Shown here in pieces: positions 5,531 through 27,943 of a stretch of DNA of 35,166 bases. Position numbers and translations under genes: made by a program. The notes beneath the pieces are model-generated. The model worked only from the letters and a program-made list of their open reading frames with translations. It made no database searches and had not been told where the DNA came from. The stretch comes from Desulfuromonadales bacterium (GTDB taxonomy: Bacteria > Desulfobacterota > Desulfuromonadia > Desulfuromonadales > JAHYIW01): contig JARGFI010000027.1 in assembly GCA_029210745.1 (NCBI GenBank), positions 1 through 35,166 of the forward strand, written 5' to 3'. Numbering within the stretch: position 1 is the first letter of the stretch; every line of letters starts with the position of its first letter.

Positions 5531-5566
5531 AATAACGCCGCCGGACGGAACTTTTGCGGTGTTATT
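5531..5566 (-). other. intergenic stem-loop between oleA and oleB
   Basis: The 11-base arms at 5531-5541 and 5556-5566 are complementary with one mismatch around a 14-base loop. The arm begins at the last base of the oleA stop codon. No U-run follows, so it is not a classical terminator; it may be a processing or mRNA stability element that sets OleA levels apart from OleBCD. Confidence 0.4.
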
Positions 5567-6609
5567 TACCATTGAATACCGAGCATCAGGCAGTTGAGGC
5601 CACTGCCGATGCCAAGAAAACCGACCATGTCGCCGGGGAGGAGGAAATCACGTTCTTTGGCGATGGCGGCGGTGACCGGCAGTGACACCGTTCCCATATT
5701 GCCGAGAAACTCATAGGTGGAGAAATCTTTCTCCGCAGCCACACCGATCGTTTGCAGGATCAGCTTCTGGTGAGCTTCACCAACCTGATGACAAATGACC
5801 TTGTCGAAGCGCTCGGTGGTCAGATCAAGTTCCTTGACGAACGCGTCCCAGGTGCGTTTGCCGAGTTCCACGCCGTGTTTCATGACCGCGACAGCATCGG
5901 TCTGCATATAGGGGACATGATGTTCCGGGGCGTCCGATCTGATTCCCCAGCGACAGAGTTTGTGATGCTGGGGCTCGGCCAGATTGATCCCGCCGAGCAG
6001 CCGCGGACGCCGCGCCGGGGTGAACGAACCGTCGGTCAAAAGGACGGCTGCGGCACCCGATCCGCCGGTCAATGTGGCCAGTGACGTGGTAAAACTTTCC
6101 ATCGTCGGTTGGTCCAGCATCTGCTGGATCATCGTCTCATTGATCTCGCGGGAACTTTCACAGGCGACCACCAGACCGGCGCGGATCTGCCCGAGTTCGA
6201 TGCGGTTGGCAATATCGAGGACGCCGTTGAGTACCCCGAGGCAGGCGTTGGAGGTGTCATAAATCGCCGCCTCGCCATGCACCCCGAGCGCCGCCGCCAC
6301 CTGACAGGCGGTTGCCGGTTCGTAATGTTCGCGACACACCCCGGCGTAGACCACCGCCCCGATATCGGTCGGTGAAATGTTGCGTTCGCGCAATGCTTTC
6401 TGCGCGGCGGCAATGGCTCCTTCCGAGACCGGCGTGTGCGGTTTCCACCAACGGCGTTCACGGATCCCGGTCAACGCTTCGAGTTGCCCCGGTGCGATAT
6501 GCAGGGCATCGTACATTGGTCGCAGGCGCTGTTCCAGCTCTGTCGAGGTGACCACGATCGGTGCCAGTTCGTAGCCGACCGATTCAATATAAACGCGTGA
6601 GTATCTCAT
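5566..6609 (-). CDS. oleA: OleA, head-to-head acyl condensing thiolase
   Basis: A 347-residue thiolase-fold enzyme that joins two activated fatty acyl chains by non-decarboxylative Claisen condensation, giving a 2-alkyl-3-keto acid. The nucleophile is Cys123 in DTSNACLGVLNG. The glutamate in REHYEPATA lies exactly 26 residues before it, as in characterised OleA, where it is the general base. CHQVGEAHQ and EFLGNMGTVSLP supply the histidine and asparagine, and the C-terminus ends with LGIGSGLNC. I chose the ATG at 6609 (MRYSRVYIESVGYELAP) because known OleA proteins begin there; the frame is open to 6699 but would then overlap the pfaC-like gene and add an atypical 30-residue extension. A sigma70-like promoter lies just upstream. 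Its position directly behind the PUFA synthase suggests polyunsaturated acyl substrates. Confidence 0.93.
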   Translation of the reverse strand: MRYSRVYIESVGYELAPIVVTSTELEQRLRPMYDALHIAPGQLEALTGIRERRWWKPHTPVSEGAIAAAQKALRERNISPTDIGAVVYAGVCREHYEPATACQVAAALGVHGEAAIYDTSNACLGVLNGVLDIANRIELGQIRAGLVVACESSREINETMIQQMLDQPTMESFTTSLATLTGGSGAAAVLLTDGSFTPARRPRLLGGINLAEPQHHKLCRWGIRSDAPEHHVPYMQTDAVAVMKHGVELGKRTWDAFVKELDLTTERFDKVICHQVGEAHQKLILQTIGVAAEKDFSTYEFLGNMGTVSLPVTAAIAKERDFLLPGDMVGFLGIGSGLNCLMLGIQW

Positions 6610-6657
6610 CCGTACCACCATCTCAAGATCATAATTTTTCGCTACGCAAACCGGGCT

Positions 6658-6686
6658 ATAATACCTGCTGTACAGTCGACAATCAA
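6658..6686 (-). promoter_or_regulatory. candidate internal promoter in front of oleA
   Basis: On the minus strand TTGATT (6686-6681) and TATTAT (6663-6658) are exactly 17 bases apart, matching consensus at 4 and 5 of 6 positions. The -35 box overlaps the stop codon of the pfaC-like gene. Transcription would start near 6651, about 42 nt before oleA, and could let oleABCD plus the transferase be made independently of the large synthase genes. Confidence 0.5.
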
Positions 6687-13660: not shown

Positions 13661-13662
13661 GC

Positions 13663-16600
13663 TCAGGCGGCTCCCCGCAATTTGTTCCGCTGGAAGCTTG
13701 CATTCAACGACGCATCGATCACACATTCATATTCTTCGATACGCGCGATCAAGGTACTGTCGGCGGGATCGACAAAGTCAATTTGCGCCCCCGCCTTGTC
13801 GGCACTCTGATGGGTGACCGTGATCCGGACTTCAACCCCGGTGGTCGGAAATTTATCCTGGTATTGGCGATAACGTCCGGCAAAGACCGGCAGGGAGGCC
13901 GCCTGGTAACGTTCGAAGCTCCAGAGGATCATCAACTGAAAGCTGCTGTCAAGCGCGAGAGGATCAGCCAGCCAGGTGTTGCGCAACGGCTGATTGATCC
14001 ATTCGGACGGCAGGGGCGCCGGGCGAACCAGAGAAGCAATGCCCTCAGCGGAACAGCCGATAACTTCACGAATACTGTGAAAAGCCGGACCATGAAAAAG
14101 GCGATCCATGTGGTAGATTTCGCTTACCGGGCGGGTATAAACGGCCAGTTCCTCGTGACGCTCGGCAGCGACTTTGGCTTCCGGGAGTTTGGCTGCCAGC
14201 ACCATGCGGGCGCGGGAGTGGATAAAGTGCTGACCGGCCGCCGTAACCCCGGAGAGTTCGACCGGCACGACATGCACGCCGCCGCTCTTGAACGCCTTGC
14301 CGGTGGTGACCTGAAGGGTATGGCTCTGTCCGTCTTCGAGCGTCACTCCTTTGAGGATGCGCAGATCGTTGAAGCCGTGAAAACGCAATCCCGGATTATT
14401 GTGAATGGCACCGTGGGCCATCCATTCGATAATCATTGCCATCGGCAAAACCGCTTTTCCGTCGATCACATGGGACGCCAGGAACGGAAAGTTCGCGATG
14501 GAGATTTCCAGATCGAAAGCCTTGGAGACATAAATATTTTCGTGGGTTGACACCTTGTTTGTGTCACTGGCTGCCTGGCGACCGCCGAGGATGACCAGCT
14601 CAACCGGGCCACCGGGCGGGGTGGAAATTTCCTCGACCAGATAGTGTGCTCCGGCCTGCAAGTCGATCACCGCGATCCCCTCTTCGGCAAAGATCTTTTT
14701 CAGTGCGGGGGTCACCATCCCACCATCCCACGGGCCCCAGTTCAACGACAGTACGCGGCAGTCAGTGTGCCGGGCGGCCTGTTGCTGAGCCATCTTGTTA
14801 AGCACCTCGTTGGCGACGGCGTAGTCAACCTGACCGGTCCGCCCGAAACGACCGGTGGATGACGAGAACATCACCATAAAGCGCAGCTCATCCCCGGTCA
14901 ATGCCGCCAGCAGATTTTCAAGTCCCGCCACCTTGGTCGCGACCACCTGGCTGAACTGTTCGCTGGTCTTGTCCTTGATCAGCCGGTCCGCCAGCACACC
15001 GGCCCCATGGATCAGCCCTTTGATCGGGCCGTATTCTTCGCGGATAGCGTTGATCACCAGGGCGACGGCAGCAGCGTCACGCAGATCGACGCAACGATAG
15101 ATCGGCTGACCGCCCGCTTCCTTGATGCGGCGCAAGGTATTGCGGATTTCGCGCTGGTCGAGAACCTGCTGATATTGCTGGCCGACTTCTTTGGGCTTAA
15201 GTGGTCCGTGACTGTTGGCGATAAGCGCTTTTTTAATGTCGCCTTCGCTGTTCAGACCGTCGAGCCAGACCGGTTCATCGTGCGCTGCGGCGCTGCGTCC
15301 CAACAGGAGCAAGGTGGCGTGGCTTGCAGCGGCTAAAGCCACCGCGACTTCGGCGGTTACCCCGCGTGCGCCGCCACTGATGACGACGACATCACCGTAG
15401 CTGACCGGTGAATCGTGTGTTTCTCCGGCGAGTGACTCTTCGGTCAGACTGAGGGTGATCCGTCCATCAGGGGTGAAGCCGACTTCCTGCGGACCCTCGA
15501 CCAGCAGTTCGGCGAGCAGTGCGTGCGCCGTTTGCTCGACATCTTCCAGATCGGTCGCCAGGTCGAAAGCTCTGCAACTGACTGTCGGCCACTCGTGTCC
15601 GGCGGTTTTGGCAAGTCCGGCCAGTCCCCCCGAGACGGGGTCACTGATCGGCCCGCCACCGGGCAGGGCAAAGTGGCCGTTCAGCCGTGAAACCGTGGCC
15701 AGAATCGCTCCCCCCTGGTCGGCGCAAAGCTTGAGTCCCGGCTCCGCCAGTTGCAGCAGTTGAAATGCCTGCTGCAGAAACGCTGCACTGGCACCGGACT
15801 GTGGAGTCAGGATAATCAGCCCGGACAGTTGCTCCGCCGGAGGGAGGCTGGAGAGCTGATCGATGCTGATTTTTTGTGCGTTCAACTGCCGGGCGCTCAG
15901 TTGCTGACAGATCGCGGTGGTTAGCGCACTACCATCATCACTGACCCAGACGACGCTTTTCTGCGGCAGTTTTATCGCCTCGCGATTCCCGGTGGCGCGC
16001 AACGGAACAGCTTTAAGGATCTTACGCTCAATACCACTCTCCACTGAGGGGAGCTCAAAAGGCGCTTCCGGTTTCGGTGCCGGTTCGGCAGCCCCGGAAA
16101 CGCTGGCCAGAAAATCGACGATCTGGGCGACCGTCTGCAAGGTGCCGAGGTGTTCGGGCTTGATAGCGGGTGCTCCCGGCAACTGATCCTGTAAGGCAGA
16201 AAGGATTTCGACGCGTTTGATCGAATCGATCCCCAGATCGGTATCGAGCGCCATCTCCAGTTCCAGCATCTCCAGCGGATAACCGGTTTTTTCGGCAATA
16301 ACGTTAAGTAGTGCGGCGGCAACAACCTCCCGGTTGAGCGGGCCGGTCGCGCTCGCGACCGGTTGCGGCGCCGAGCTTCTCCCGCTTGCTTCGCTCAAGT
16401 GGGCGACAATCTGACCGAGGGTTTGCAGCACGCCGAGGTTTTCGGGTTTGACTGCCGGAGCATCGGGCAGTTGTTCCTGCAAGGCGGACAAGATTTCTAC
16501 CCGCTTGATTGAATCGATCCCCAGATCGGTGTCGAGCGCCATCTCCAGCTCCAGCATCTCCAGCGGATAACCGGTCTTTTCGGCAATGACGCTGAGCAGG

Positions 16601-19600
16601 ACGGTTGCGACCCGGTTACTGTCGAGCACCTGCGGGATGGTCTGCGGCGTTGCCGCAGTGTCCACTGTTCCAGCCCCCAGATGGGCGACGATCTGACCAA
16701 GCGTCTGCAAGACACCGAGATCTTCCGGTTTGACCGACGGAGCATCAGGGAGTTTTTCCTGAAGGGCGGAAAGGATTTCCACCCGTTTGATCGAATCGAT
16801 CCCGAGGTCGGTATCGAGGGTCATCTCCAGGTCGAGCATCTCCTCCGGATAGCCGGTTTTCTCTGCAATCACCGCGAGCAGCGTGGCGGCAATCTCCGTG
16901 CAATCAAGCGCAACCGGGGGATGTTGGGCGACGGAAGAAACGGCAGTGGTGTCAGCGGTGGCCGCTGCCGCAAGCGTAGCTGCGGGGGGTGCCTGGTGCG
17001 GTGGCGTTGTTGGCACGCTCGGCGCGGTCGAGCTGAGCGGAGGCTGTTGCCCGTGCAACAACTGACTCTGTTGCTCAACCAGTTGGAGAAAGGAGCGCGC
17101 CGCCGATTCCTGCCCGGACAAAAACTGCTGATGGAGGCGCGCGGTCTGCTCTTGCAGCGTTTGCAATGCCTGGAAGCTCTGTTGGGTCAGTTGCAGGGCG
17201 GTATGCAGCGAAGCGTTATCGGCAATGGTTGCTGACTGGTCGGGTGCCGCAATGGTAGCTTTAACCCGGGGGGCCGTGTCTGCCCCGGACGCCGGCGCGG
17301 GCGCACCGGTGTTGGTTGCCGATTGTGGCAGCGCCGGTCGTTTGGGCGGTGCCTTGAAATAGTTGGCACCAGTCAACGGGACGGTTATGCCACGTTTCTG
17401 TTCCGGGCGCGATTGGCGCAGGGTGGCATAGCCCTCATCCCAGCGGTTCAGATCGACCGGGTGACCGAGTATCGCCAGTTGTGCCAGCGCGCGACCCAGA
17501 TCGCAGATTCCCGAACGCTTGCCGTTGGAGGCATCGAGAGCGAAAGCCTGATGGGGGCGTTCAGCGAGGATGGCCCTGACCATCGCGGTCAGGCGGGCAC
17601 CGGGGCCGACCTCCAGGAAGATGCGCGTACCGGCGGCGTACATGGCCTCGATCTCGGCGACGAAATCGACCGGGCAGGCCAACTGCCGAGCCAGCAGCTG
17701 CCGTACTTCGTCGGGATTTTGCGCGTAGGGCGCGCCGGTGGTGTTGGCATAAACCGGGGTGGCCGGTCGACTGAATGTAATCGCGTTCAAGCGCGTGCCG
17801 AACGGTTCTGCGGCGGCGGCCACCAGTTCACTGTGGAAGGCAGCCGCAACCGCGAGGCGCTTGTAGCTGATGCCCTGGGCGTCAAGGAGTGCTGCCGCTT
17901 GCTCGATATCTTTTGTCGTGCCGGAAAGAACGCCCTGTTCAGGGGTGTTGCGGTTGGCCACAACCAGCGACAATCCGGAGTCGGCAAGGAACTGTTCAAG
18001 CTGTGCAAGGGGAGCGGAAACCGCCAGCATTGAACCGCGATCGCCTTCACCGCTGGCCATTAATGCACCGCGCAGATGGGACAGATCGTGCAAGGTGGCG
18101 CTGTCAAAATAACCGCCGCAGCAGAGTGCCGTCAGTTCGCCGTAGCTGTGTCCGGCATAAGCGTCGGGCACCACGCCGAAAGTGGTCAGCACATTGCGTG
18201 CAGCGAGGCTGACCGCACCGAGGGCAGGTTGCGCAACCTGCGTTGCCTGAAGTTTTGCATGATTCCGCTCAGCGCCAGCCTGATCAAAGCTGGTGCGCGG
18301 ATAGACCAGCTCTGTCAGTCGACCGTGCTTTCCGTCGCTGCTGGTCGTGAAGGCCCGCTCGGCAGCGGTGAATGTGTCAAGAAATTCGGGAAATTGCAGC
18401 GCCATATCTTTCAGCATTCCCGGATATTGCGCTCCTTGACCAGGGAAGAGTATCGCCAGCTGGTCGCCGATTTCGCTCCGGGCAAAAAAGCTGCCGTCCG
18501 GCGTGTGCCACGCGTCGTGCCCGCAATTGGTGCGCAACATGGTCAGGGCTCCCTGAATCTGCGCGGCGGGTTGTGCCTGGTCCTGTTCCAGAACCAGAAT
18601 CAGACGACAGGTCTGACGTGAATCGAATTGACGGCGACTGTGGGCCGCCGCCAGGCGCAGGTCGCTCCATGCCCCGCTGGCCGGAAACGCTTCCAGCGCC
18701 TTTTCCAGGGTGGCCTCATCGGGACCACTGAAGGCGACGAGCTGGACGTCGCCCTGCCAGTCAGCCGCAGTCTTGAGGGCGTGATGCTCTTCGAGCAGGC
18801 AGTGGAAGTTACTACCGCCAAAACCGAGCGCACTGACTCCGGCGCGGCGCGGATAATCGCCCAGCGGAATCCACGGACGCGCTGCGGTGTTGATGTAGAA
18901 TGGCGAATGTGCGGCGCTGATGATGTCCTGGGGGCGGGTCACCTTGATCGTTGGTGGCAGCGTTTTGTGGTAGAGCGCCAGGGCTGCCTTGATCAGTCCG
19001 GCGGAACCGGCTGCGGCCTTGGTGTGACCGATCTGTGATTTGATCGAACCGATCGCACACCAGGGGAAATCCGCCGTGCCGAAAACCTCTTTCAAGGCGG
19101 AGACTTCGACGGCATCACCGACCTTGGTGCCGGTGCCGTGGGCTTCGATCAGTTCGATGGTGCGCGGGTCGACACCGCTCTGCTCATAGGCGCGCCGGAG
19201 GGCTTTCTGTTGCCCTTCAGCACTTGGCTCATAGATGGCAACCCCGCGCCCGTCACTGGATGAACCGATCCCCTTGATGAGGGCGTAGATTTTGTCGCCG
19301 TCACGTTCGGCATCGGCCAGTCGCTTGATAACGACGATTCCCAACCCTTCCCCCAGGGTGGTGCCATCGGCCTCGGCGGCGAAGGGGCGAGCATGCCCGG
19401 AGGGGGAGAGCGCCGGGGTCTTGCTGAAACAGGTGTACATGAAGATGTCATTGAAGGTGTCGATCCCGCCGGTGATCACCATGTCCGTCTTGCCCGCAGC
19501 GAGTTCGAGAGCGGCAAGGTTAAGTGCGCCCAGAGAACTGCCGCACGCCGCATCAACGACACAGTTGGTGCCGCCGAAGTCAAAATGTTTGCTGATCCGT

Positions 19601-20193
19601 CCGGCGACCACATTGCCCAGCAGTCCGGGGAAGGAATTTTCCTGCCAGGGGACATATGAATCACTGATGCGTTGCATGACATCGGCCGCGATGGCATCGG
19701 CAATTCCGGCATCTTTAAGCGCTTCACGCCAGCGTGGATGACCGAGACGCGCACCGAGCGGCACGACCAGCTCCAGGGTGCCGGTGACGCCGAGAATCAC
19801 ACTGACACGTTCGCGATCGAAGTCTTTGTCGCGGGTGTAGCCGGCATCCTGCAACGCCTGATCGACGGCGACCAGACCGAGCAGCTGCGAGGTGTCGATC
19901 GCTTCCAGCGCGTTTGGCAGCACACCGTATTCCAGCGGATTGAAGTCGACCGGGGAGAGGAACCCGCCGCATCTGGCGTAGACCTTGTCCGGGGCTTTGG
20001 GGTTCGGATCGAAATAATCGTCCGAACGCCAGTGGGTTGCGGGAACCTCGGTGATGGCATCGGCACCGTTTTTGATATTGGTCCAGAATGTCCCCTGGTC
20101 TCCTGCCTGGGGAAAGATGCTCCCGATCCCGACAATGGCCAGCGGCGCTGTTGCTGCCGACTGAATGTTTTGTTCTCCGCTGTTATCCTTCAA
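13663..20193 (-). CDS. pfaA: PfaA-type PUFA synthase subunit: KS-MAT-ACPx3-KR-DH
   Basis: A 2176-residue iterative polyketide/fatty acid synthase subunit. The ketosynthase comes first (Cys217 in DAACGSS, His352 in EAHGTGT, His390 in IGHTKAA), then a malonyl transferase (GQGAQYPGM near 585, Ser683 in GHSYGE). A Gln/Ala/Pro-rich, helix-prone linker (about 960-1080) precedes three carrier domains with LGIDSIKRVEIL at Ser1134, Ser1228 and Ser1324. A ketoreductase follows (SGGARGV near 1602, Ser about 1778, Tyr1791), and a C-terminal hot-dog dehydratase-like domain (His1908 in SHVIDGKAVLPM). The start is TTG at 20193, overlapping the pfaD stop (TTGA), with AAGGAG 8 nt upstream and no in-frame ATG before the KS fold. 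Three carriers is fewer than in many EPA/DHA producers. It works with PfaD and the PfaC-like protein to build polyunsaturated chains. Confidence 0.93.
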   Translation of the reverse strand: MKDNSGEQNIQSAATAPLAIVGIGSIFPQAGDQGTFWTNIKNGADAITEVPATHWRSDDYFDPNPKAPDKVYARCGGFLSPVDFNPLEYGVLPNALEAIDTSQLLGLVAVDQALQDAGYTRDKDFDRERVSVILGVTGTLELVVPLGARLGHPRWREALKDAGIADAIAADVMQRISDSYVPWQENSFPGLLGNVVAGRISKHFDFGGTNCVVDAACGSSLGALNLAALELAAGKTDMVITGGIDTFNDIFMYTCFSKTPALSPSGHARPFAAEADGTTLGEGLGIVVIKRLADAERDGDKIYALIKGIGSSSDGRGVAIYEPSAEGQQKALRRAYEQSGVDPRTIELIEAHGTGTKVGDAVEVSALKEVFGTADFPWCAIGSIKSQIGHTKAAAGSAGLIKAALALYHKTLPPTIKVTRPQDIISAAHSPFYINTAARPWIPLGDYPRRAGVSALGFGGSNFHCLLEEHHALKTAADWQGDVQLVAFSGPDEATLEKALEAFPASGAWSDLRLAAAHSRRQFDSRQTCRLILVLEQDQAQPAAQIQGALTMLRTNCGHDAWHTPDGSFFARSEIGDQLAILFPGQGAQYPGMLKDMALQFPEFLDTFTAAERAFTTSSDGKHGRLTELVYPRTSFDQAGAERNHAKLQATQVAQPALGAVSLAARNVLTTFGVVPDAYAGHSYGELTALCCGGYFDSATLHDLSHLRGALMASGEGDRGSMLAVSAPLAQLEQFLADSGLSLVVANRNTPEQGVLSGTTKDIEQAAALLDAQGISYKRLAVAAAFHSELVAAAAEPFGTRLNAITFSRPATPVYANTTGAPYAQNPDEVRQLLARQLACPVDFVAEIEAMYAAGTRIFLEVGPGARLTAMVRAILAERPHQAFALDASNGKRSGICDLGRALAQLAILGHPVDLNRWDEGYATLRQSRPEQKRGITVPLTGANYFKAPPKRPALPQSATNTGAPAPASGADTAPRVKATIAAPDQSATIADNASLHTALQLTQQSFQALQTLQEQTARLHQQFLSGQESAARSFLQLVEQQSQLLHGQQPPLSSTAPSVPTTPPHQAPPAATLAAAATADTTAVSSVAQHPPVALDCTEIAATLLAVIAEKTGYPEEMLDLEMTLDTDLGIDSIKRVEILSALQEKLPDAPSVKPEDLGVLQTLGQIVAHLGAGTVDTAATPQTIPQVLDSNRVATVLLSVIAEKTGYPLEMLELEMALDTDLGIDSIKRVEILSALQEQLPDAPAVKPENLGVLQTLGQIVAHLSEASGRSSAPQPVASATGPLNREVVAAALLNVIAEKTGYPLEMLELEMALDTDLGIDSIKRVEILSALQDQLPGAPAIKPEHLGTLQTVAQIVDFLASVSGAAEPAPKPEAPFELPSVESGIERKILKAVPLRATGNREAIKLPQKSVVWVSDDGSALTTAICQQLSARQLNAQKISIDQLSSLPPAEQLSGLIILTPQSGASAAFLQQAFQLLQLAEPGLKLCADQGGAILATVSRLNGHFALPGGGPISDPVSGGLAGLAKTAGHEWPTVSCRAFDLATDLEDVEQTAHALLAELLVEGPQEVGFTPDGRITLSLTEESLAGETHDSPVSYGDVVVISGGARGVTAEVAVALAAASHATLLLLGRSAAAHDEPVWLDGLNSEGDIKKALIANSHGPLKPKEVGQQYQQVLDQREIRNTLRRIKEAGGQPIYRCVDLRDAAAVALVINAIREEYGPIKGLIHGAGVLADRLIKDKTSEQFSQVVATKVAGLENLLAALTGDELRFMVMFSSSTGRFGRTGQVDYAVANEVLNKMAQQQAARHTDCRVLSLNWGPWDGGMVTPALKKIFAEEGIAVIDLQAGAHYLVEEISTPPGGPVELVILGGRQAASDTNKVSTHENIYVSKAFDLEISIANFPFLASHVIDGKAVLPMAMIIEWMAHGAIHNNPGLRFHGFNDLRILKGVTLEDGQSHTLQVTTGKAFKSGGVHVVPVELSGVTAAGQHFIHSRARMVLAAKLPEAKVAAERHEELAVYTRPVSEIYHMDRLFHGPAFHSIREVIGCSAEGIASLVRPAPLPSEWINQPLRNTWLADPLALDSSFQLMILWSFERYQAASLPVFAGRYRQYQDKFPTTGVEVRITVTHQSADKAGAQIDFVDPADSTLIARIEEYECVIDASLNASFQRNKLRGAA
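16130..16880 (-). repeat. three tandem acyl-carrier-domain repeats inside pfaA
   Basis: Three copies of a unit of about 280-290 bp encode carrier domains with attachment serines at codons starting 16794, 16512 and 16224 (spacing 94 and 96 residues). The second and third copies are the most alike, including LELEMALDTDLGIDSIKRV, and are also very similar as DNA. This suggests recent internal duplication or gene conversion. Confidence 0.85.
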
Positions 20194-21806
20194 CTGAGAA
20201 ACTCCTTGATGTGGTCGATTTCAAGGGGAGCTACGCGTGTTGCCTCAGCGTCGAGACGAACCCCTTGAAGTTTAAGTTGATTGGCGCGGATCAAAACCGC
20301 CGCCCCAAAAAGAATATTCCATGCCACCGTAGCGACCCGGCGCTGCGCGGGAGGATCGAGTAACGACCCCTTGACCCATTCGTTGAAAGCGCCCATCGCC
20401 GGACCGCACCAGATCTGGTAATCGAGTTTCCGCGTCGTTTCGCCGCGATTGGCCCACACCGGTGATTGCCCCAAATACCAGCGAAAGACCAGCGCCAGTT
20501 TGTATTTCGGATCGCGCTCGGCCTTGGCCAGCTGGCGGGGGTCGCGATGGTCAAAGAAACTGCGGGTTTCTTCCCAGACCTGATCGAGATCCTTGCGAAA
20601 GATCGTTTTTTCCAGCTTCAGCCGTTCTTCAGCGGGCAGCTCCTCAATACTGTTATAGCTGCGGTAAAGTTCATACAACTTGGCAGCGCGCATCGAAAAC
20701 ATCGTGCCGCGTTTGATGACCTGTACCTTGACCCCCATTTCAAACATATCCCCGGACGGGGCCATGGTGACATCGGCCTGACGGGTTTCGGCCAGCATCT
20801 GGCGCACTTCGTCGCACGTTCCTGACTCGATGCAGGCCTGATTCACCGTGCCGGTGACCAGATAGTCTGCTCCCAGCGCAAATGCGGCGGCAGCGGCAGC
20901 GGGCGTGGCGATACCGCCGCCCAGCCCAAGGCGCAACGGTTGCGGATAATTATAGCTCTTTTGACAGCCGTTTTTTTGTGCCTGAATGGTCGGGAACAAT
21001 GCCAGTGCCGGACGGTTGTCGGTATGCCCGCCGGAGTCGGCTTCGACAGTCACATCCTGCGCCATCGGAATCTGTGTTGCCCACTGTGCCTGTTCGGCTG
21101 TCAACTGACGTGTTGCGACCAGCTCATGCAAAAAACGCTCCGGTGGCGGGGCAAAGAACCTGGCGGCGACCTCTTCGCGAGAAATTTTAGCAATGATCCG
21201 GTTCGGGGTGATGATGCAACCGCTGGCATCGCGGTAAATGCCGTGCGTACGGTAGCGAACCAGGGGCAAGGTCAGATCGAGAAACGCCGAGGCTTCGATC
21301 AGTGTCACCCCGCGCCGCAAATAAAGGTCAGTCAGCGCATTTTCCAGTTCCGGTTCATTGGGACTGTGGATCAGGTTGAATCCGTAGCCCCCCAATGTGA
21401 CCCGGCTTTGCAGTTGATTGATGGCTTCTTCAACCGCCTCCGGCAACAGCCCGGCGGCGCCGAAGAAACCGAGCATCCCCGCCTCGGCCAACGCCTCGAC
21501 CATTGCGACCGAACTGATCCCTTTGGCCATCGACCCGCCTACGTAGGCATAGCGCAGGCGGTGATCGCGGCAAAAATCGCGGTTACCAAGATGCTCAAGC
21601 GGGCAGGGGAGGACCATGCCGGTAAAGGGGTGATCGGCAGCGTGCGCATCGACTGTGCCGGAGACAACCTCAATGTCACAATCGTGTGCCAGCAGGTAGA
21701 GGGGTCGGTTGATATGGCGCAACGCCTGGGGTAGAGCCTCTCCCCCCGGTTCGGGAAGGAAGAATCCCAGCGTCGAATGGTGCTTTGGCACGTTAATATT
21801 CAACAA
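20190..21806 (-). CDS. pfaD: PfaD, trans-acting enoyl reductase of the PUFA synthase
   Basis: A 538-residue flavin-dependent TIM-barrel protein of the PfaD/2-nitropropane dioxygenase-like group. Visible landmarks are YAYVGGSMAKGISS, GMLGFFGAAGL, GYGFNLIHSPNEP, EADSGGHTDNRPA, LGLGGGIATPAAAAAAFALGADYLVTGTVNQA and KRGTMFSMRAAKLYELY, which cover flavin binding and the family-specific C-terminal part. PfaD supplies the enoyl reduction that PfaA and PfaC lack and so helps decide which double bonds remain. No ATG is available: the frame starts with two adjacent TTG codons (21806 and 21803) behind an AGGAG. The second TTG overlaps the ispH stop as TTGA with 8-nt spacing, the same arrangement as at pfaA. 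The order pfaD-pfaA-pfaC resembles myxobacterial pfa1-pfa2-pfa3 rather than pfaABCD of Shewanella. Confidence 0.92.
   Translation of the reverse strand: MLNINVPKHHSTLGFFLPEPGGEALPQALRHINRPLYLLAHDCDIEVVSGTVDAHAADHPFTGMVLPCPLEHLGNRDFCRDHRLRYAYVGGSMAKGISSVAMVEALAEAGMLGFFGAAGLLPEAVEEAINQLQSRVTLGGYGFNLIHSPNEPELENALTDLYLRRGVTLIEASAFLDLTLPLVRYRTHGIYRDASGCIITPNRIIAKISREEVAARFFAPPPERFLHELVATRQLTAEQAQWATQIPMAQDVTVEADSGGHTDNRPALALFPTIQAQKNGCQKSYNYPQPLRLGLGGGIATPAAAAAAFALGADYLVTGTVNQACIESGTCDEVRQMLAETRQADVTMAPSGDMFEMGVKVQVIKRGTMFSMRAAKLYELYRSYNSIEELPAEERLKLEKTIFRKDLDQVWEETRSFFDHRDPRQLAKAERDPKYKLALVFRWYLGQSPVWANRGETTRKLDYQIWCGPAMGAFNEWVKGSLLDPPAQRRVATVAWNILFGAAVLIRANQLKLQGVRLDAEATRVAPLEIDHIKEFLS
20202..20207 (-). 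promoter_or_regulatory. strong ribosome binding site fixing the TTG start of pfaA
   Basis: AAGGAG on the minus strand lies 8 nt before TTG at 20193, inside the end of pfaD. It is the only plausible initiation site, since no ATG or GTG is available before the ketosynthase fold. Confidence 0.8.
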
Positions 21807-22666
21807 TTATGCTCCTGTAGAGAGGTTAACACCCGCTCGATTTCATTGACAATTTCTTTTGGCGTCGAGGCGCCGGCGGTCAAGCCGATACGTGCATAGT
21901 GGCGCAGCTTGTCAAGTGGCAGTTCGGCGGCGCTTTCGATATGCAGGGCTTCCGTCCCGTGAGCCCTGACCACCTGCACCAGACGCCGGGTGTTGCTGCT
22001 TTCGTAGCCCCCCGCGACAATCACAAAATCGACCTTGTCCGCCAGCAGAATCGCCTCTTCCTGACGCTGGCGCGTTGCGTCGCAGATGGTGTGCAAAATC
22101 GTCACGTCCAGTTCCTTGCGTTGTTGCAGGCAGTCGATGATCGATTGCAGAATGTCTTTGTCCTGGGTGGTCTGGGCGGCCAGACAATATTGTTTGGCCG
22201 GGTCAAGATTCAGTTGCTCACACCCCTGACAGGAATCGAAGACCAGTGCTTCACCGGCGGCATAGCTCAGCAGGCACTGTACTTCGGGGTGCGTTGCCTC
22301 ACCGTAAAGGAGCAAGGCGCGCCCGTTTGCCGTGTGTTTTTTTATCTGCATGCAGGCGGCGGTCACTTTTGGACAGGTCGCATCGACAATCCGGATGCCC
22401 CGCTGCTCCAGTGTCTCGCGAATCTCCCTGGCGATGCCGTGAGCGCGAATCACCACCGTCGATCCGGCCGGAATCTCATCCGGCGAATTGACGGTGATGA
22501 CCCCTTTTGCGGCATATTCCCTGACCACCTGGGGATTGTGAATGATCGACCCGAGGATGAAGATCGTGTTGCGTTGTTCAGCCTGCTGAATAAGTGCGTT
22601 CAGCTTGCAGAGCGCCAGATCGACGCCCATGCAAAAACCGGCTCGTTGTGCTTTGAGAATTTCCAT
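21800..22666 (-). CDS. ispH: IspH (LytB), 4-hydroxy-3-methylbut-2-enyl diphosphate reductase
   Basis: A 288-residue iron-sulfur enzyme catalysing the last step of the MEP isoprenoid pathway, reduction of HMBPP to IPP and DMAPP. The three cluster-binding cysteines are visible in RAGFCMGV (Cys12), VDATCPKV and HTICDATRQRQEE. Conserved histidine stretches RAHG and GEATHPEV, and the late substrate-binding TAGASTPKEIV, are present. The ATG at 22666 gives the usual N-terminus; a TTG one codon upstream is possible. It is intact and of normal length. It is the first gene of the pfa-ole train: its stop overlaps the pfaD start, so translation of the PUFA synthase appears coupled to it. IspH beside a PUFA synthase is unexpected and has no obvious biochemical reason. 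Confidence 0.93.
   Translation of the reverse strand: MEILKAQRAGFCMGVDLALCKLNALIQQAEQRNTIFILGSIIHNPQVVREYAAKGVITVNSPDEIPAGSTVVIRAHGIAREIRETLEQRGIRIVDATCPKVTAACMQIKKHTANGRALLLYGEATHPEVQCLLSYAAGEALVFDSCQGCEQLNLDPAKQYCLAAQTTQDKDILQSIIDCLQQRKELDVTILHTICDATRQRQEEAILLADKVDFVIVAGGYESSNTRRLVQVVRAHGTEALHIESAAELPLDKLRHYARIGLTAGASTPKEIVNEIERVLTSLQEHNC
21812..21816 (-). promoter_or_regulatory. ribosome binding site for the TTG start of pfaD
   Basis: AGGAG on the minus strand lies 5 nt before TTG 21806 and 8 nt before TTG 21803, within the last codons of ispH. It supports a TTG start coupled to termination of ispH. Confidence 0.65.
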
Positions 22667-22710
22667 CAATCATCCCCAGGGTTTTTACCCGTCGGTAGCC
22701 GTTTTATCCG

Positions 22711-23100
22711 TCAGCCGCGAACAGCCAACCCCATCACCACCAGCGCAATCAGCGGCAACGGGATATCGCCGTGAAATTCCCAGCCACTACTGTGGCTTTT
22801 GCCGTGGGGTGAGCAACCATTGCTGGAGACAACCCACGCCTCATCGAGTGACTTGCCGAACGGCTTGATGATATTGCCCTCAACCTTGAACCCGGCAAAC
22901 ATCGTCTTGCCGTAAGGCTTCAGCACGTTGCCATCCCATTGATAGCCGCGCGTAATCGAACCATCACACGGACGCACAAACTTGCCGTCGAATTCCCATC
23001 CCAGTTCTTTCGATTTGCCGATCGGCTTGAGGATACGACCGTTCCATTCAAAGCCGGTCATAATCGATTGCCCGTAGCGTTTGATTGTAGCAAGGCCCAT
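22711..23100 (-). CDS. small repeat protein, beta-flower-like, with hydrophobic C-terminus
   Basis: A 129-residue protein built from about six units of 17-20 residues with the pattern aromatic-GKS, 3-5 residues, G-aromatic-x-hydrophobic-x-G-x-hydrophobic-hydrophobic-KP. Clear units are IGKSKELGWEFDGKFVRP, DGSITRGYQWDGNVLKP, YGKTMFAGFKVEGNIIKP and HGKSHSSGWEFHGDIPLP. Each should form a beta hairpin, as in the so-called four-fold beta-flower proteins; this match is from memory of the pattern. The last 15 or so residues (PLIALVVMGLAVRG) are hydrophobic and could anchor it in a membrane. The ATG at 23100 starts the repeat; a TTG at 23181 would add a non-repeat extension. It is 44 nt upstream of ispH on the same strand and might be co-transcribed. 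Function unknown. Confidence 0.6.
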   Translation of the reverse strand: MGLATIKRYGQSIMTGFEWNGRILKPIGKSKELGWEFDGKFVRPCDGSITRGYQWDGNVLKPYGKTMFAGFKVEGNIIKPFGKSLDEAWVVSSNGCSPHGKSHSSGWEFHGDIPLPLIALVVMGLAVRG

Positions 23101-23332
23101 AGCAAACCAGCTGTCCAGAAAGGTTAACGTGCGGCACCGGATAAGACCAGCAAAGATAACGAAAAATTGAGGTGAATGCAAGTTTTATGCTGTCGGGTGG
23201 CACAATCTGGCTTGTGTTCAGGGAACCGGTTTTACTGCGCCATCACTAATCTTTTGATTTTTTTACGCGCATCCCTTAGACTGCCCAAATCTATCCTTGC
23301 AATGTGACACTTCATTGATCAGGAGGAACTCT

Positions 23333-23502
23333 ATGTCTCCCCGCGAAAAAATGCGAAAAAATTCTTGCTTCCGCCCGGCAACACACCGAAAATGGCAACC
23401 TTGCCGAAGCCATCGCTGATTATCACACGCCAATTCGGCAGATAGTCTGTGTAGTAGGAATTGACCTGATTTATGAGGGGATTACGACAGATATGTTGTG
23501 AG
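23333..23502 (+). pseudogene. frameshifted gene start with TPR-like segment
   Basis: An ATG at 23333 follows a very good ribosome binding site (AGGAGG, 6 nt upstream) but the frame stops after 28 codons. Dropping one A from the A6 run at 23356-23361 restores a frame reading KILASARQHTENGNLAEAIADY, a TPR-like pattern, which then stops near 23500. I read this as the broken start of a gene that once continued into the AAA fragment that follows. Confidence 0.45.
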
Positions 23503-23742
23503 GATGGTTTTGTCGCCAAAAGTCCTCCAGGAACCGGTAAGTCCGCCTACGTCCGCTATCTGGCAGAAAGACTCGGCATGCCGGTACTGTTCAAGCGCGC
23601 TTCGGACTTGATCTCAAAATGGGTGGGGGAAAGTGAGCAAAACATTGCCCTGGCCTTTGAAGAAGCGATAGCGGCCAGTTGCCTTTGGGGTCTTTGCACT
23701 ATTGTTGGTTCTCTTTCAGATCGTGTGGGTGCCTCATCTTGA
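23473..23742 (+). pseudogene. AAA+ ATPase remnant (Walker A only)
   Basis: In this frame the sequence reads PPGTGKSAYVRYLAERLGMP, then KRASDLISKWVGESEQNIALAFEEA. This is a classic AAA+ nucleotide-binding loop and the following helix of an ATPase. The match ends before the Walker B aspartates, sensor residues and lid, and the frame changes to unrelated sequence ending at 23742. No credible start exists. It is a decayed fragment, probably left by deletion, beside an equally decayed SEC-C remnant and in front of an intact GmrSD-like nuclease. Confidence 0.65.
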
Positions 23743-24024
23743 AAAAGTCATAGGAATAGCGATAGATGCGCCGAAATTTACGAAAAGAAATTCTCAAGAT
23801 CTTATTCTGCTCCCTTGCAAGGACTGGCCGGACGATATTAGCCGGCAGTACGAGGAGAACAATAAACTATTCGGCTTTTTAGAACATGAATCCCTCCGAT
23901 ACCAAAAGATGAAGATAACGGAGTTCCCTGCCCTGAGTCTGAAGGCAAGAAACGAAAAGTCGATAAAAATGAGAAATGCCCATGCGGGTCTGGGTTGAAA
24001 TTTAAGAAGTGCTGTGGACGTTAA
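23681..24024 (+). pseudogene. SEC-C zinc-motif protein remnant, frameshifted
   Basis: Up to about 23890 the readable frame contains a hydrophobic stretch and PHLEKVIGIAIDAPKF. In another frame, bounded by a TGA at 23887-23889 and a TAA at 24022-24024, the end reads KVDKNEKCPCGSGLKFKKCC. That is a textbook SEC-C metal-binding motif (CxCxSGxKxKxCC). The motif frame has no start codon, so a frameshift must separate the two halves. SEC-C tails occur on SecA and on many proteins of unknown function; the original host protein is not recognisable. The nuclease gene begins 30 nt later. Confidence 0.6.
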
Positions 24025-24054
24025 TTGGAGATAATTGAATGTTTGGGGGAAGGA

Positions 24055-25851
24055 ATGAAAACTCAAAAATACTCTGTCAACCAACACCTCATAGAGACAA
24101 TCCTAGCTTGGGTAAATTCGGGCGAAATTGCCATCCCTGAAATCCAGCGACCTTTTGTCTGGGACGCTACCAAAGTTCGTGACCTTATGGATTCACTTTA
24201 TCAGGGCTACCCAATTGGATATCTCATAGCGTGGCGCAACCCCAATGTCAAACTGAAGGACGGCACGACCTCGGAGGGTAAAAAGGTGTTGATCGATGGT
24301 CAGCAACGCGTGACTGCACTCACGGCCGCCGTGTTGGGCCAATACATTATCGACCAGGATTACCGGCGCCGCAAAATCCGGATTGCCTTCCACCCGGACG
24401 AGGAGAGGTTTGAGGTCACCAACCCGGCCATTGAGAAGGACAAACGCTGGATCGCGGACATCGCCCCTCTGCTTAATGACGAGGTGAGCTTGTTTGATTG
24501 CGTCAATGAGTATTGTGAAAAGAACCCGGAGATAGAAACCAAGAAGATCCAGACGACCGTCACCAACCTGTCGCAAATCACCAAAAAACAGATTGGCCTG
24601 ATTGAGCTGGCATCCGACCTGGACATCGAAACGGTCACGGAGGTGTTCATCCGCATCAACTCGAAAGGGGTGGTACTCAGTCAAGCTGACTTCGCCATGT
24701 CGAAAATAGCCAGCAACGAAACCTATGGCGGTTCGACACTTCGAAAAGCCATCGACTACTTCTGCCACCTGGCCGTTGCGCCGGAGTTTTATCCGACAAT
24801 CGTCGATGTCGACAAAGATTTCACCAGTACGGATTACTTCCAGAAGATGTCCTGGCTGAAGAATGAGAATGAAGACCTTTACGATCCTGACTACACCGAC
24901 TTGTTGCGGGTTGCCTTTGTTCCGCAGTTCAACCGTGGCAAGTTCTCCGACCTGGTCAGCCTGTTGTCGGGCCGTAATTTCGAAACCAAGCAGTTTGAGG
25001 ATGAAATCGCTAAAGAGTCGTTCGCGAAACTCAAGGCCGGCATTTTCGATGCGATCAACGAAACCCATTTCAAGCGTTTTCTGATGATTATACGGTCCGC
25101 CGGGTTCCTTGACTCCGGCATGATTCGGTCGCAGAACGCCTTGAACTTTGCGTACATCGTATATTTGAAGTTACGCAACCAAGGGGTGCCGCCGCATGAT
25201 ATCGAAAAGTACGTGCGGCGCTGGTATGTCATGTCTGTTCTCACCGGTCGATACTCTTCCTCGCCTGAGTCGAGTATGGATTTTGATATCCGCCAGATAG
25301 CCAGCAGGTCTTTCGATGAATTTTTACAGTCCGTTGAAGACGCGGAACTTTCCGAGGCCTTCTGGGATGCCGGTCTTGTGCAGAGCTTGAATAGCTCAGT
25401 GAGCAGCAGTCCGTATTTGAACGTGTTCTGGGCGGCTCAAATCAAAGCCAATGACAAGGGGTTCCTCTCAAAAGACATCACCGTAAACGATCTGGTAAGC
25501 CATAAAGGGGACATTCACCACATTTTCCCGAGAGACTACCTGAAGAGGAATGGTTTCAAGCGTGGAATGTACAACCAGGTAGCCAACTATGTTTACATGC
25601 AATCAGAAATAAACATTAAGGTTGGCAACAAAGCACCTGTGACGTATTTTGACGAGCTCCACCAGCAGTGTAATGGCAATGGATTGGTGTACGGCGCCAT
25701 TTGCGAAATGGATGCACTCAAGAAGAACCTGGCGATGAATTGCATTCCCGAAAGCATCTTTGGGATGGACTTGGATCAATATGAAGAGTTCTTACGGCAG
25801 CGTCGTGCTTTGATGGCAAGGAAAATGAGAGATTACTACTTCTCATTGTAA
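24055..25851 (+). CDS. GmrSD-like DUF262 / HNH (DUF1524) nuclease, probable type IV restriction-like defence protein
   Basis: A 598-residue protein. The N-terminal DUF262 part carries [26 protein letters not shown] and [13 protein letters not shown] (Asp81, Gln83-Arg85), the ParB-like nucleotide-binding motifs. Near the C-terminus, [16 protein letters not shown] (His488-His489) followed by [22 protein letters not shown] forms an HNH/DUF1524-type nuclease. GmrSD-family proteins use NTP hydrolysis to cut modified (glucosylated or otherwise hypermodified) phage DNA, and related DUF262 proteins occur in other defence systems. The ATG at 24055 is preferred over a TTG at 24025 and is preceded by a purine-rich GGGGGAAGGA. 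All motifs look intact. It is followed 4 nt later by a DUF3553 gene and flanked by gene debris, consistent with a mobile defence island. Confidence 0.85.
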
Positions 25852-25855
25852 GGGA

Positions 25856-26146
25856 ATGATGGCAGGGTTTAAGGTCGGAGATAAAGTTAAACATCCGAAA
25901 ATGCCCGATTGGGGTATTGGAAAAGTTCTGGAAACGATGCCTGACGACAAGGTGAGAGTCTTTTTCATCAATGCCGGTGAGAAGTTGCTCGGGTTGAAAT
26001 ATGTCGCCCTGGAAAAGGTGGAAGGTGAAGATGCTTCCCATTCGATCTTGGACAACCCAAAATTTACAGAGCTTGCCGCCAAAGGGAAAAAGCAAAGAAG
26101 TTTCGGGGATATTTATCTTTCCACACATAGCCGGGCCCCAAGATGA
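25856..26146 (+). CDS. DUF3553-type small protein downstream of the nuclease
   Basis: A 96-residue protein whose first 55 residues (FKVGDKVKHPKMPDWGIGKV, VRVFFINAGEKLLGL) match the DUF3553 pattern. This is a small SH3/Tudor-like beta barrel also seen at the C-terminus of UvrD-type helicases, where it contacts protein or nucleic acid. The rest is charged. Two ATGs in a row (25856, 25859) follow AAGGGA. The gene starts 4 nt after the nuclease stop, so the two are surely co-transcribed and may act together. The last 10 or so residues look atypical, and an open frame continues in another register to 26211, so a late frameshift is possible. Confidence 0.65.
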   Translation: MMAGFKVGDKVKHPKMPDWGIGKVLETMPDDKVRVFFINAGEKLLGLKYVALEKVEGEDASHSILDNPKFTELAAKGKKQRSFGDIYLSTHSRAPR

Positions 26147-26261
26147 AGATAGCTGGGGCGAGAAGTACTTGAAAGCCAAAATGATGGCAAGGCGCAGGTT
26201 ATGGACGCAATAGCAAAATAACAATCAGCGTCCTTGTCTCATAGATTCTATCCCCAATCGG

Positions 26262-26594
26262 TCACTCGAAAATTGTGGACACCCTCGCCAGAACTTCATT
26301 CATGATTGCCTCCGGCACACCCTCCAGCTTATGGGCACTGCGCGAAGCTAAGTCGAGGGCACGAGGCTGGTCACATCTGATTACACCCGTTGTTTTCGTT
26401 CCTGCCCCAATCAGCGATACTGCAAAGCCAGCCGTACGTGCAAAGTTGCCCCCGCTGGTAATTGTCAGTACGACTGGCGTTTTTGTCAGGCGGTTGAAGG
26501 ACGACGGAGACACAACCAAAACGGGTCTTGTCCCCTGCTGTTCATGGCCTGAAGTCGGGTCAAGTGACACAAGGTAAATATCGCCGCGCTCCAT
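26262..26594 (-). CDS. MazF/PemK-type mRNA interferase toxin (ChpB-like)
   Basis: This 110-residue protein starts MERGDIYLVSLDPTSGHEQQGTRPVLVVSP, the standard MazF/PemK opening with the catalytic region RG(D)I..V.LDP..G.E..G.RP. It continues with TGVIRCDQPRALDL, containing the conserved arginine and the CDQ..(T/A)LD element of ChpB-like toxins. These enzymes cut mRNA at short motifs and stop growth. Its ATG shares one base with the antitoxin stop (TAATG), indicating coupled translation. Length and motifs are normal, so it is probably active. Confidence 0.9.
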   Translation of the reverse strand: MERGDIYLVSLDPTSGHEQQGTRPVLVVSPSSFNRLTKTPVVLTITSGGNFARTAGFAVSLIGAGTKTTGVIRCDQPRALDLASRSAHKLEGVPEAIMNEVLARVSTIFE

Positions 26595-26851
26595 TACAGT
26601 AGCTCACTGCCGACAGGCTTGTTTTCGAGCCAATCGCGATCTTCTGCACTGACCTCGGCAGATGCGTCGCATTGCGCCAACAGTTCGTCCAGGCTGTATC
26701 TCGGACGTAAAGTTGGCTCCACCACCAGGCGGCCGTGATCGACGGCCAGACCAACCGTTGCGCCAGCGTGCAAATGCAGAATATCGAGGATGGCCGGTGG
26801 TACCGCCAGCATGATCGAACCGCCTACTTTACGAAGGTTTGTTGTGTGCAT
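26594..26851 (-). CDS. MazE/ChpS-type AbrB-fold antitoxin
   Basis: An 85-residue protein with an N-terminal swapped-hairpin (AbrB/MazE) DNA-binding domain: NLRKVGGSIMLAVPPAILD, then HAGATVGLAVDHGRLVVEP. An acidic C-terminal tail (LAQCDASAEVSAEDRDWLEN) should occupy the toxin active site. It follows an AAAGGAG ribosome binding site and a palindromic operator that it probably binds with its toxin. It precedes the MazF-type gene with a one-base overlap. Confidence 0.88.
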   Translation of the reverse strand: MHTTNLRKVGGSIMLAVPPAILDILHLHAGATVGLAVDHGRLVVEPTLRPRYSLDELLAQCDASAEVSAEDRDWLENKPVGSELL

Positions 26852-26868
26852 AGTTTACGTCTCCTTTG

Positions 26869-26888
26869 AGTTATACTTTAATATAACT
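26869..26888 (-). promoter_or_regulatory. palindromic operator of the MazE/F-type pair
   Basis: AGTTATA at 26869-26875 and TATAACT at 26882-26888 form a perfect 7-bp inverted repeat with a 6-base spacer. It lies over the -10 box of the TA promoter and immediately upstream of the AAAGGAG. It is the likely autoregulatory site for the antitoxin-toxin complex. Confidence 0.55.
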
Positions 26889-27114
26889 TTCTGAAGTCGA
26901 AATTGCAAGGTGCATTAAAAGTGTACAGTCGGGTCCTCCCAACCAGCGAACTGACAAGAATGCCGCCGCGCTCCAGAATTTCAAGCTGACGCTGGAGAGG
27001 AGTCAAACTACAGGCGAAGAATCGCGCCATGTCACGCGCATGCCCCTGATTTCGCGCATAGATGAAAAAAAGGACCCGTTCTTTGTTAATCGAACCGAAA
27101 AGGGATTCAAGCAT
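26878..27114 (-). CDS. winged-helix DNA-binding protein, probably C-terminally truncated
   Basis: A 78-residue protein reading SINKERVLFFIYARNQGHARDMARFF and then TPLQRQLEILERGGILVSSLVGRTRLYTFN. This is a typical ArsR-like winged helix: helix-turn-helix followed by a GGILVSxxxGRTRLYxFN wing. Relatives I know usually continue after FN with PRYPF..ELKALL and about 15 more residues. Here the sequence changes to APCNFDFRKLY and stops, exactly where the promoter and operator of the MazE/F-type pair begin. It could still bind DNA. It is on the same strand as the TA pair, 26 nt upstream. Confidence 0.6.
   Translation of the reverse strand: MLESLFGSINKERVLFFIYARNQGHARDMARFFACSLTPLQRQLEILERGGILVSSLVGRTRLYTFNAPCNFDFRKLY
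26880..26908 (-). promoter_or_regulatory. promoter of the MazE/F-type pair
   Basis: On the minus strand TTGCAA (26908-26903) and TATATT (26885-26880) are 17 bases apart. Both lie within the 3' end of the winged-helix gene, so the TA pair has its own promoter inside its neighbour. Confidence 0.5.
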
Positions 27115-27302
27115 AACGACCTCACAAAGATGTCAAATGATTTCCAATTAAGGTCATGATGTCATTTCCTGTTCAGAGCGCAATCATTTATATTCATTAT
27201 TTTTTGATTCGCGCCTCTAAAGATACGAGCCTCGCCGGTTTATGTCTCAATCTTCAACTGAAAAGTCAATCGACCCCCGATGATTCTTTCGACCCGCAAC
27301 CC

Positions 27303-27328
27303 AGGGCACCCGCGAGGGGTGCCCCTAC
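27303..27328 (-). repeat. REP-like palindrome, copy 1
   Basis: GGGCACCC (27304-27311) pairs perfectly with GGGTGCCC (27317-27324) around a 5-base loop, followed by CTAC. Read on the minus strand it begins GTAGGGGCACCCCT. Confidence 0.55.
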
Positions 27329-27360
27329 GATGAACGACCAACCGGACGCGAATTAGTTTA

Positions 27361-27388
27361 GTAGGGATGCCCCTTGCGGGTATCCGGG
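27361..27388 (+). repeat. REP-like palindrome, copy 2 (inverted to copy 1)
   Basis: It begins GTAGGGATGCCCCTTGCGGG on the plus strand, a diverged version of copy 1 in the opposite orientation. Arms GGATGCCC (27365-27372) and GGGTATCC (27378-27385) pair with one G-T wobble. The two copies form a BIME-like inverted pair about 33 bp apart. Confidence 0.5.
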
Positions 27389-27490
27389 GTTTTGACCGGC
27401 GGCACCGAAACCCGCTTGCGGATATCCGGCAGTTCATGGAGGAGTTCTGGGTATATCTATTTTTTATCCTCACGCACCCTTATGCCATTC

Positions 27491-27943
27491 TCACATCAGC
27501 CTGTGTGTCGCCAGCGTCAATATCGCGACCATCACATATCTGGCCAGCTTTCCAGTGGTCACCAGCACGGCAAACTGCCAAAACTTGACCCGCAACAAAC
27601 CGCCCACCAGACAAAGCGGATCACCAATCACCGGCAACCAGGACAACAACAGGGACCAGCAGCCGTAGCGTTGATAAAATCGTGAGGCGCGGTCCCGCGA
27701 GCAATCATCGATCCGCAATACCCGCGTAATCAGCCACGGCCCACCGTACCAACCGATCACCCAGGTGGTCAACGCTCCGAGGGAATTTCCGGCGGTCGCG
27801 ACCACGACGGTTACCAGCGGGTCGGAGTCGCGCAGCAGCAGTGACACCAACAACCATTCAGACCCGAGCGGGATCAGGGTCGCGGCAAGAAAACCGAGCA
27901 GAAAGAGGGCAAGGAGCCCGTGATGATTCAGAAATAGATCCAT
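27491..27943 (-). CDS. YqaA/DedA-family (VTT-domain) inner-membrane protein
   Basis: A 150-residue membrane protein with three to four hydrophobic helices. Family marks are FLAATLIPLGSEWLLVSLL at the first re-entrant/helix region, ATAGNSLGALTTWVIG (conserved GNxLG), FYQRYGCWSLLLSWLPVIGDPLCLVGGLLRV and the final helix. YqaA-like members belong to the DedA/SNARE-associated (VTT) superfamily, linked to membrane homeostasis and possibly lipid-carrier transport. Length is normal for YqaA. It is the last gene of the moxR-bat train, 45 nt after batD, but has no evident ribosome binding site. Its role with the Bat proteins is unknown. Confidence 0.85.
   Translation of the reverse strand: MDLFLNHHGLLALFLLGFLAATLIPLGSEWLLVSLLLRDSDPLVTVVVATAGNSLGALTTWVIGWYGGPWLITRVLRIDDCSRDRASRFYQRYGCWSLLLSWLPVIGDPLCLVGGLLRVKFWQFAVLVTTGKLARYVMVAILTLATHRLM

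Follow-up and report, generated by a model that had tools for sequence, protein, structure and literature searches.

Enzymes of the GmrSD family have been described both as single proteins and as pairs. BrxU, which is the same enzyme as HEC-05 and works independently (PMC11411939), is able on its own to cleave a range of modified DNAs; it forms an intertwined dimer that passes to monomers upon ATP (PMC8565348). The two-protein GmrSD system TgvAB of Vibrio cholerae is embedded in a type I locus, and its second gene itself encodes a DUF262 protein, nothing like DUF3553 (PMC11411939). An enrichment of type I genes around GmrSD genes has been reported more generally (PMC4619093). DUF3553 itself (PF12073) corresponds to the C-terminal Tudor domain of the helicases PcrA and UvrD (PDB 5dma), a fold that binds RNA polymerase (PMC6511836). 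TUDOR domains also head BREX and BREX-related helicases, for which a reader role has been suggested (PMC12839542). In the literature searched, no mention of DUF3553 together with GmrSD or DUF262 was found.

The window analysed here is a stretch of 35,166 nt from a bacterium of the order Desulfuromonadales. An earlier note proposed that it carries a two-gene defence unit, made of a DUF262-HNH nuclease and a small DUF3553 protein. The reading favoured here, with a probability of roughly 80%, is that a self-sufficient type IV nuclease lies beside the 5' remnant of a longer gene of a family referred to below as DUF3553-X, a remnant most likely without a role in restriction, and that both are located on a segment that is likely foreign (Table 1).

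Table 1. Features of the nuclease-bearing region, in window positions.
Feature	Position	Strand	Basis
Segment missing from G396 (same genus), with AAA and SEC-C debris, nuclease and DUF3553 fragment	23196..26098		DNA comparison
AAA ATPase fragment	23473..23739	+	PF00004, 5.2e-10
Putative SEC-C motif tail (KCPCGSGLKFKKCCGR and stop) of a frame-broken gene	23940..24024	+	Sequence
GmrSD-family (BrxU/HEC-05-like) nuclease gene, intact, 598 aa	24055..25851	+	ORF, Pfam, motifs, alignment, fold
Small ORF: Tudor domain (DUF3553) from a truncated DUF3553-X gene, plus resident tail	25856..26146	+	Pfam, profile, junction
Probably foreign part of the small ORF	25859..26098	+	Profile match 25871-26098
Resident 48-nt tail of the small ORF (last 16 codons)	26099..26146	+	85% identical in G396
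PemK/MazF-type toxin, resident	26262..26594	-	Pfam above cut-off; shared with G396
MazE-type antitoxin, resident	26594..26851	-	Matches below curated cut-offs; shared with G396

The nuclease gene is open and full-length, as had been claimed. The ORF listing gives a frame of 608 codons, within which the ATG used in Table 1 is the start common to the relatives. This single frame holds both the N- and the C-terminal motifs, that is, the S and D parts in one polypeptide, and the intactness of the gene and of its motifs is a direct observation. The N-terminal domain is DUF262 (Pfam GmrSD_N, E=1.2e-31) and bears QR at residues 31-32, DGQQR at 81-85 and FIRIN at 198-202, in keeping with the GmrSD motif list (QR, DGQQR, FxxxN) of PMC11411939. 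It is followed by a helical linker and a putative His-Me/HNH-type C-terminal domain with HHIFP at 488-492 and the pair N507...N520. Every one of the 46 full-length relatives examined has QR and DGQQR; HHIFP is present in 43 and the downstream N...IN motif in 41 of them. An alignment of 32 rows (window plus 31 relatives) and 599 columns shows F[IV]x[IV]N in every row, with F198, I199, R200 and N202 invariant; 157 columns show one residue throughout the 31 relatives, and the nuclease differs at one of these; its peers differ zero to five times. The naming of the C-terminal domain as HNH by the earlier note is weak by Pfam (HNH_4 0.12, below cut-off), but the HHIFP and N...IN motifs and BrxU as the closest structure speak for it.

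Comparison with known enzymes leads to BrxU throughout. The best PADLOC model is HEC-05 (3.5e-31), among PDB sequences BrxU 7p9k (2.1e-9) alone matches at E 0.001, and a Foldseek search with the predicted model (pLDDT 82.6, pTM 0.67) finds BrxU as its best match (E=9.4e-13), with BrxU chains alone below E 0.001. A rigid superposition of the whole model on BrxU is poor (Foldseek TM 0.35, rmsd 17.7). Both are single polypeptides with a DUF262 domain carrying DGQQR and a C-terminal domain of His-Me/HNH type, putative in the nuclease, but identity in the fold alignment is only 16-18%, the nuclease has HHIFP where BrxU has DHIYP, and PF07510 (GmrSD_C) does not match the nuclease in Pfam. Judged by its sequence, the nuclease is thus of a known kind, a GmrSD-family enzyme closest to BrxU/HEC-05 and predicted to be a single-polypeptide type IV enzyme. 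By analogy with its family, the DUF262 domain would bind and hydrolyse nucleotide, and the C-terminal domain would cut DNA with modified bases.

Relatives of the nuclease were collected from one-per-species genomes. Of the 56 loci, 54 match at 50-71% identity, and in the other two the match is restricted to the first ~50 residues (100 and 79%). The relatives span Methanophagales, Ignavibacteria, Burkholderiales and Planctomycetota, and 143 plasmid records match the nuclease at E 1e-5. Broken copies of the gene also occur: L056:5001-5150 is a 5' piece of the same gene, with 50 residues 100% identical and the middle apparently deleted, and L101:1499-1757, in a genome of the same order (G225), is a 5' piece with stops, 92% identical over 76 residues.

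The neighbourhoods of these relatives raise the question of whether the nuclease has strayed from a type I restriction locus, working as a type IV enzyme embedded beside HsdRMS. An HsdM-like ORF lies upstream in at least 13 of the 56 loci (one blastp cluster, confirmed as HsdM by Pfam in L014), HsdS follows the nuclease in L030, L038 and L096 (Pfam), as in TgvAB several relatives are embedded in type I loci, and the general enrichment of type I genes around GmrSD genes noted above agrees with such an origin. However, the nuclease-bearing segment of the window showed no type I gene, and many relatives have no such gene close by. This origin is quite unlikely for the window copy, and it bears on where the nuclease came from rather than on its mode of action.

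The segment carrying the nuclease was delimited by comparison with G396, the one same-genus genome compared, the family holding two genomes. Shared DNA runs up to 23195 and resumes at 26099; a DNA search of G396 with 23196-26146 returns 26099-26146 (85%) as its sole match, and identity beyond is 96%. A gene that we read from its sequence as ispH is 97% identical between the two genomes. In G396 the flanks lie on two contigs. The ends of these contigs overlap by 127 identical bases, so the two genomes share the site, and the window is unlikely to be misassembled. We take the overlap to lie inside a putative RAYT transposase gene, which, with a uvsE-like gene, presumably occupies the site in G396 (names from sequence). 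A direct-repeat family spanning both segment ends was searched for and not found. GC content is 0.54-0.61 upstream (20000-22999) and 0.44-0.53 at about 23000-26250; it is weak evidence for a foreign segment, because resident DNA at 26750-27499 also dips, to 0.46-0.49. The segment of ~2.9 kb is most likely of foreign origin.

The debris that had been described upstream of the nuclease is present within the segment: an AAA ATPase fragment and, further on, the tail ending at 24024, which we take to be a SEC-C motif. A 37-base piece from the start of the AAA debris (window 23454-23490) recurs at 97% identity in the same genome, on a different contig (G000:C49:149-185). The toxin-antitoxin pair said to lie downstream exists, but it is resident DNA, 96% shared with G396, and lies outside the nuclease-bearing segment; MazEF as a part of the nuclease unit is therefore ruled out. 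The surroundings of the segment have features of their own. A polyunsaturated-fatty-acid-synthase-like cluster occupies 5566-21806 on the minus strand. It encodes a PfaA of 2176 aa above cut-off and a PfaA/PKS-like protein of 2347 aa below it, together with a PfaD family protein and a 3-oxoacyl-ACP synthase III (NF006720). A 156-aa ORF with internal GK-type repeats and only a weak DUF2850 match (22711-23181, minus strand) shows conservation in G396 that reaches the left end of the variable segment. On the other side, 27225-27437 is an interspersed repeat, stretches of which are found at seven other places in G396 at 87-93% identity.

The right end of the segment falls inside the small ORF. This ORF has 96 codons and begins 4 nt past the nuclease stop; its likely start is the second in-frame ATG at 25859, which fits the start of the homologues better. 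Here the claim of a small DUF3553 Tudor protein directly behind the nuclease holds for the domain (PF12073, 2.5e-13; PcrA_UvrD_tudor 0.0065, below cut-off) and for the spacing, but not for an intact gene: the ORF covers only positions 4-79 of the 289-position DUF3553-X profile. It was matched in 43 of 297 genomes of a phylum sample, its own included, mostly in UvrD/PcrA-sized frames of ~700-780 codons; the best matches outside its own genome in this sample are the N-termini of ~290-aa proteins. By identity, the closest relatives are proteins of 287-423 aa, which match at 62-70% over the first ~80 residues only. Shared DNA resumes at 26099, inside the ORF, and the tail coincides in frame, last residues and stop with another ORF of G396, which ends in SSGDIYLSTHCRAPG and the stop; the small ORF is therefore a 5' fragment that resident DNA closes off. 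Truncation and chimerism are both directly visible in the comparison, and they rule out an intact DUF3553 sensor gene. The cut is less sharp in pairwise comparison, where the match extends to 26119 for the G184 protein and up to residue 90 or 91 for that of G142. PDB sequence matches of the ORF are weak, an AlphaFold model of the ORF alone is poor (pLDDT 46), and plasmids and phages yielded no match at E 1e-5. A search of the own genome with the full-length DUF3553-X profile gave no second match, and X was not found elsewhere there. In the favoured reading, the right end of the segment would cut the DUF3553-X gene at about the boundary between the Tudor domain and X, and the loss of X would leave a 5' remnant that most likely plays no role in restriction.

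A fragment of this kind might still be expressed and modulate the nuclease, the Tudor domain being complete by Pfam and starting 4-7 nt behind the nuclease gene. The chimeric tail at the segment junction argues against this, as does the fact that the loci examined show no other nuclease of this kind followed by a short DUF3553 gene. Short stand-alone DUF3553 ORFs do exist in G063 and G287 (96 and 103 codons), but they are only 42-45% identical to the small ORF, have different ends and lie far from the GmrSD genes of their genomes. Such a modulating role is highly improbable.

A two-gene unit could be expected to recur, and the note had named the conservation of the neighbourhood as a check. 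Among the 56 loci of nuclease relatives, a search of all ORFs by phmmer and with a profile of full-length relatives gave no DUF3553 neighbour; 51 of these loci are informative, with at least 400 bp beyond the 3' end of the nuclease gene. The result was the same for 21 viral contigs and for nine other genomes of a 395-genome phylum sample. Genes in the flanks were greedy ORF calls, and the flanks of L088, L089, L090 and L168 reach contig ends. The pair is thus absent from the relatives examined and, with a truncated and chimeric second ORF, the proposed DUF262-DUF3553 unit finds no support here as a working pair. Recurrence has another side, however: 2 of 13 intact DUF3553-X genes adjoin other GmrSD genes.

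The DUF3553-X proteins consist of the Tudor domain followed by ~200 conserved residues (X), for which no Pfam family scores above cut-off. Searches covered even samples of 297 and 395 genomes of the own phylum, 277 genomes of the own class and 136 of the own order; the profile searches of the order and the class gave intact members beyond the phylum sample, G416 and G619 among them. The 13 full-length members are those of G416, G619, G610, G645, G184, G047, G141, G142, G051, G168, G320, G297 and an Ilyobacter plasmid; partial or X-only matches (G018, G077, G353, G385, G057, G006, G517, G497, G636, G529), UvrD-type matches and the window copy stand outside this count. Among plasmids, the Ilyobacter copy, with no defence gene annotated nearby, is the one full-length case, beside a few X-only matches. 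No relative was confirmed in viral contigs, and the G416 protein has no match in phages. Nothing in PADLOC-DB 2.0.0 matches the two members tested, the profile finds no PDB sequence at E 0.1, and PHROGs gave no useful match. The G416 protein (L159:5510-6778) has an extra C-terminal extension of ~125 aa that is absent from the other aligned members.

The neighbours of the intact genes bear on a further possibility, namely that what the window keeps is left over from a genuine two-gene unit. A GmrSD enzyme and DUF3553-X would have cooperated in the donor, X contributing to DNA recognition and the Tudor domain linking the complex to RNA polymerase or to some other protein, and the window copy would have lost X. 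In G416, a GmrSD gene (GmrSD_N 3.1e-36, GmrSD_C 5.6e-26) is followed after 2 nt by the DUF3553-X gene, the same order as in the window; HsdS is nearby, and a 700-aa AAA gene lies about 2 kb from DUF3553-X. The product of this AAA gene shares 94% identity over 48 aa with the AAA debris of the window (23524-23667). In G619, DUF3553-X lies 45 nt ahead of a GmrSD_N gene in a BREX locus, followed by BrxA, a weak BrxB and BrxC. Three other members have defence-type neighbours, with no GmrSD gene in the stretch: a WYL regulator and a PbeA-type helicase in G610, HsdM and YhcG/DUF1016 in G645, and HARE-HTH/Mrr in G184. Because 2 of the 13 intact genes adjoin GmrSD and 5 of the 13 are near defence-type genes, the association of GmrSD with DUF3553-X appears, with less certainty than the points above, not to be a pure accident of the window contig. 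The chance of two such adjacencies among 13 is about 1e-5, uncorrected and assuming 3300 genes per genome in random order, and defence genes cluster, so that adjacency overstates partnership.

Other observations weigh against a cooperating donor pair. The GmrSD partners belong to different subfamilies and the gene order differs. For the remaining eight members (G047, G141, G142, G051, G168, G320, G297 and the Ilyobacter plasmid), no defence neighbour was seen, judged by eye from gene starts or the plasmid annotation; a mixed DUF262 profile matched 2 of 14 DUF3553-X stretches, those of G416 and G619. A PF03235 search of 14 genomes, which leaves aside G416, G619, G610 and G645, placed no GmrSD gene close to a match of DUF3553 type or to X; G063 and G287 have the two on one contig, but hundreds of kb apart. 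A further 85 genomes around G184 yielded no new member besides G184 itself, and the window-type nucleases lack a DUF3553 neighbour in all 51 informative loci. Such a donor unit is unlikely, even with the occurrence of X as the N-terminal part of three AAA_5 proteins (L137, L165, L166) counted in its favour.

In these AAA_5 proteins, which have X in common with the intact relatives of the small ORF and give no DUF3553 match, X begins at profile position 79-80, about where the window copy, itself without X, is cut. We take the proteins to be McrB-like. In McrB, the N-terminal position is that of the DNA-reading domain. Because X holds the same position in the AAA_5 proteins, it is a candidate recognition module. 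An 'AAA family ATPase' with a stretch similar to X is also encoded on Leptolyngbya plasmids. For the Tudor domain, the earlier note had considered a DNA-binding adaptor. The RNA-polymerase-binding role of this fold in PcrA/UvrD (PMC6511836) makes protein binding the likelier role by analogy. In PcrA/UvrD the domain is C-terminal on a helicase, whereas the small ORF has no helicase and is the N-terminal part of DUF3553-X, cut short.

For this locus, the outcome is that a spurious two-gene system, which had arisen from a junction ORF, is removed; one same-genus genome and the full-length homologues suffice to tell the fragment from a gene. A more speculative and rather doubtful suggestion concerns the family as a whole. 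DUF3553-X may be an undescribed component of anti-phage islands, in which X would serve as a recognition or adaptor module and the Tudor domain would stand in the place of the motor, coupling a GmrSD nuclease or a BREX or type I system to DNA that is modified or being transcribed; the window copy would be a broken one. The intact DUF3553-X family, found in some genomes next to GmrSD, BREX and type I genes, is the part worth testing.
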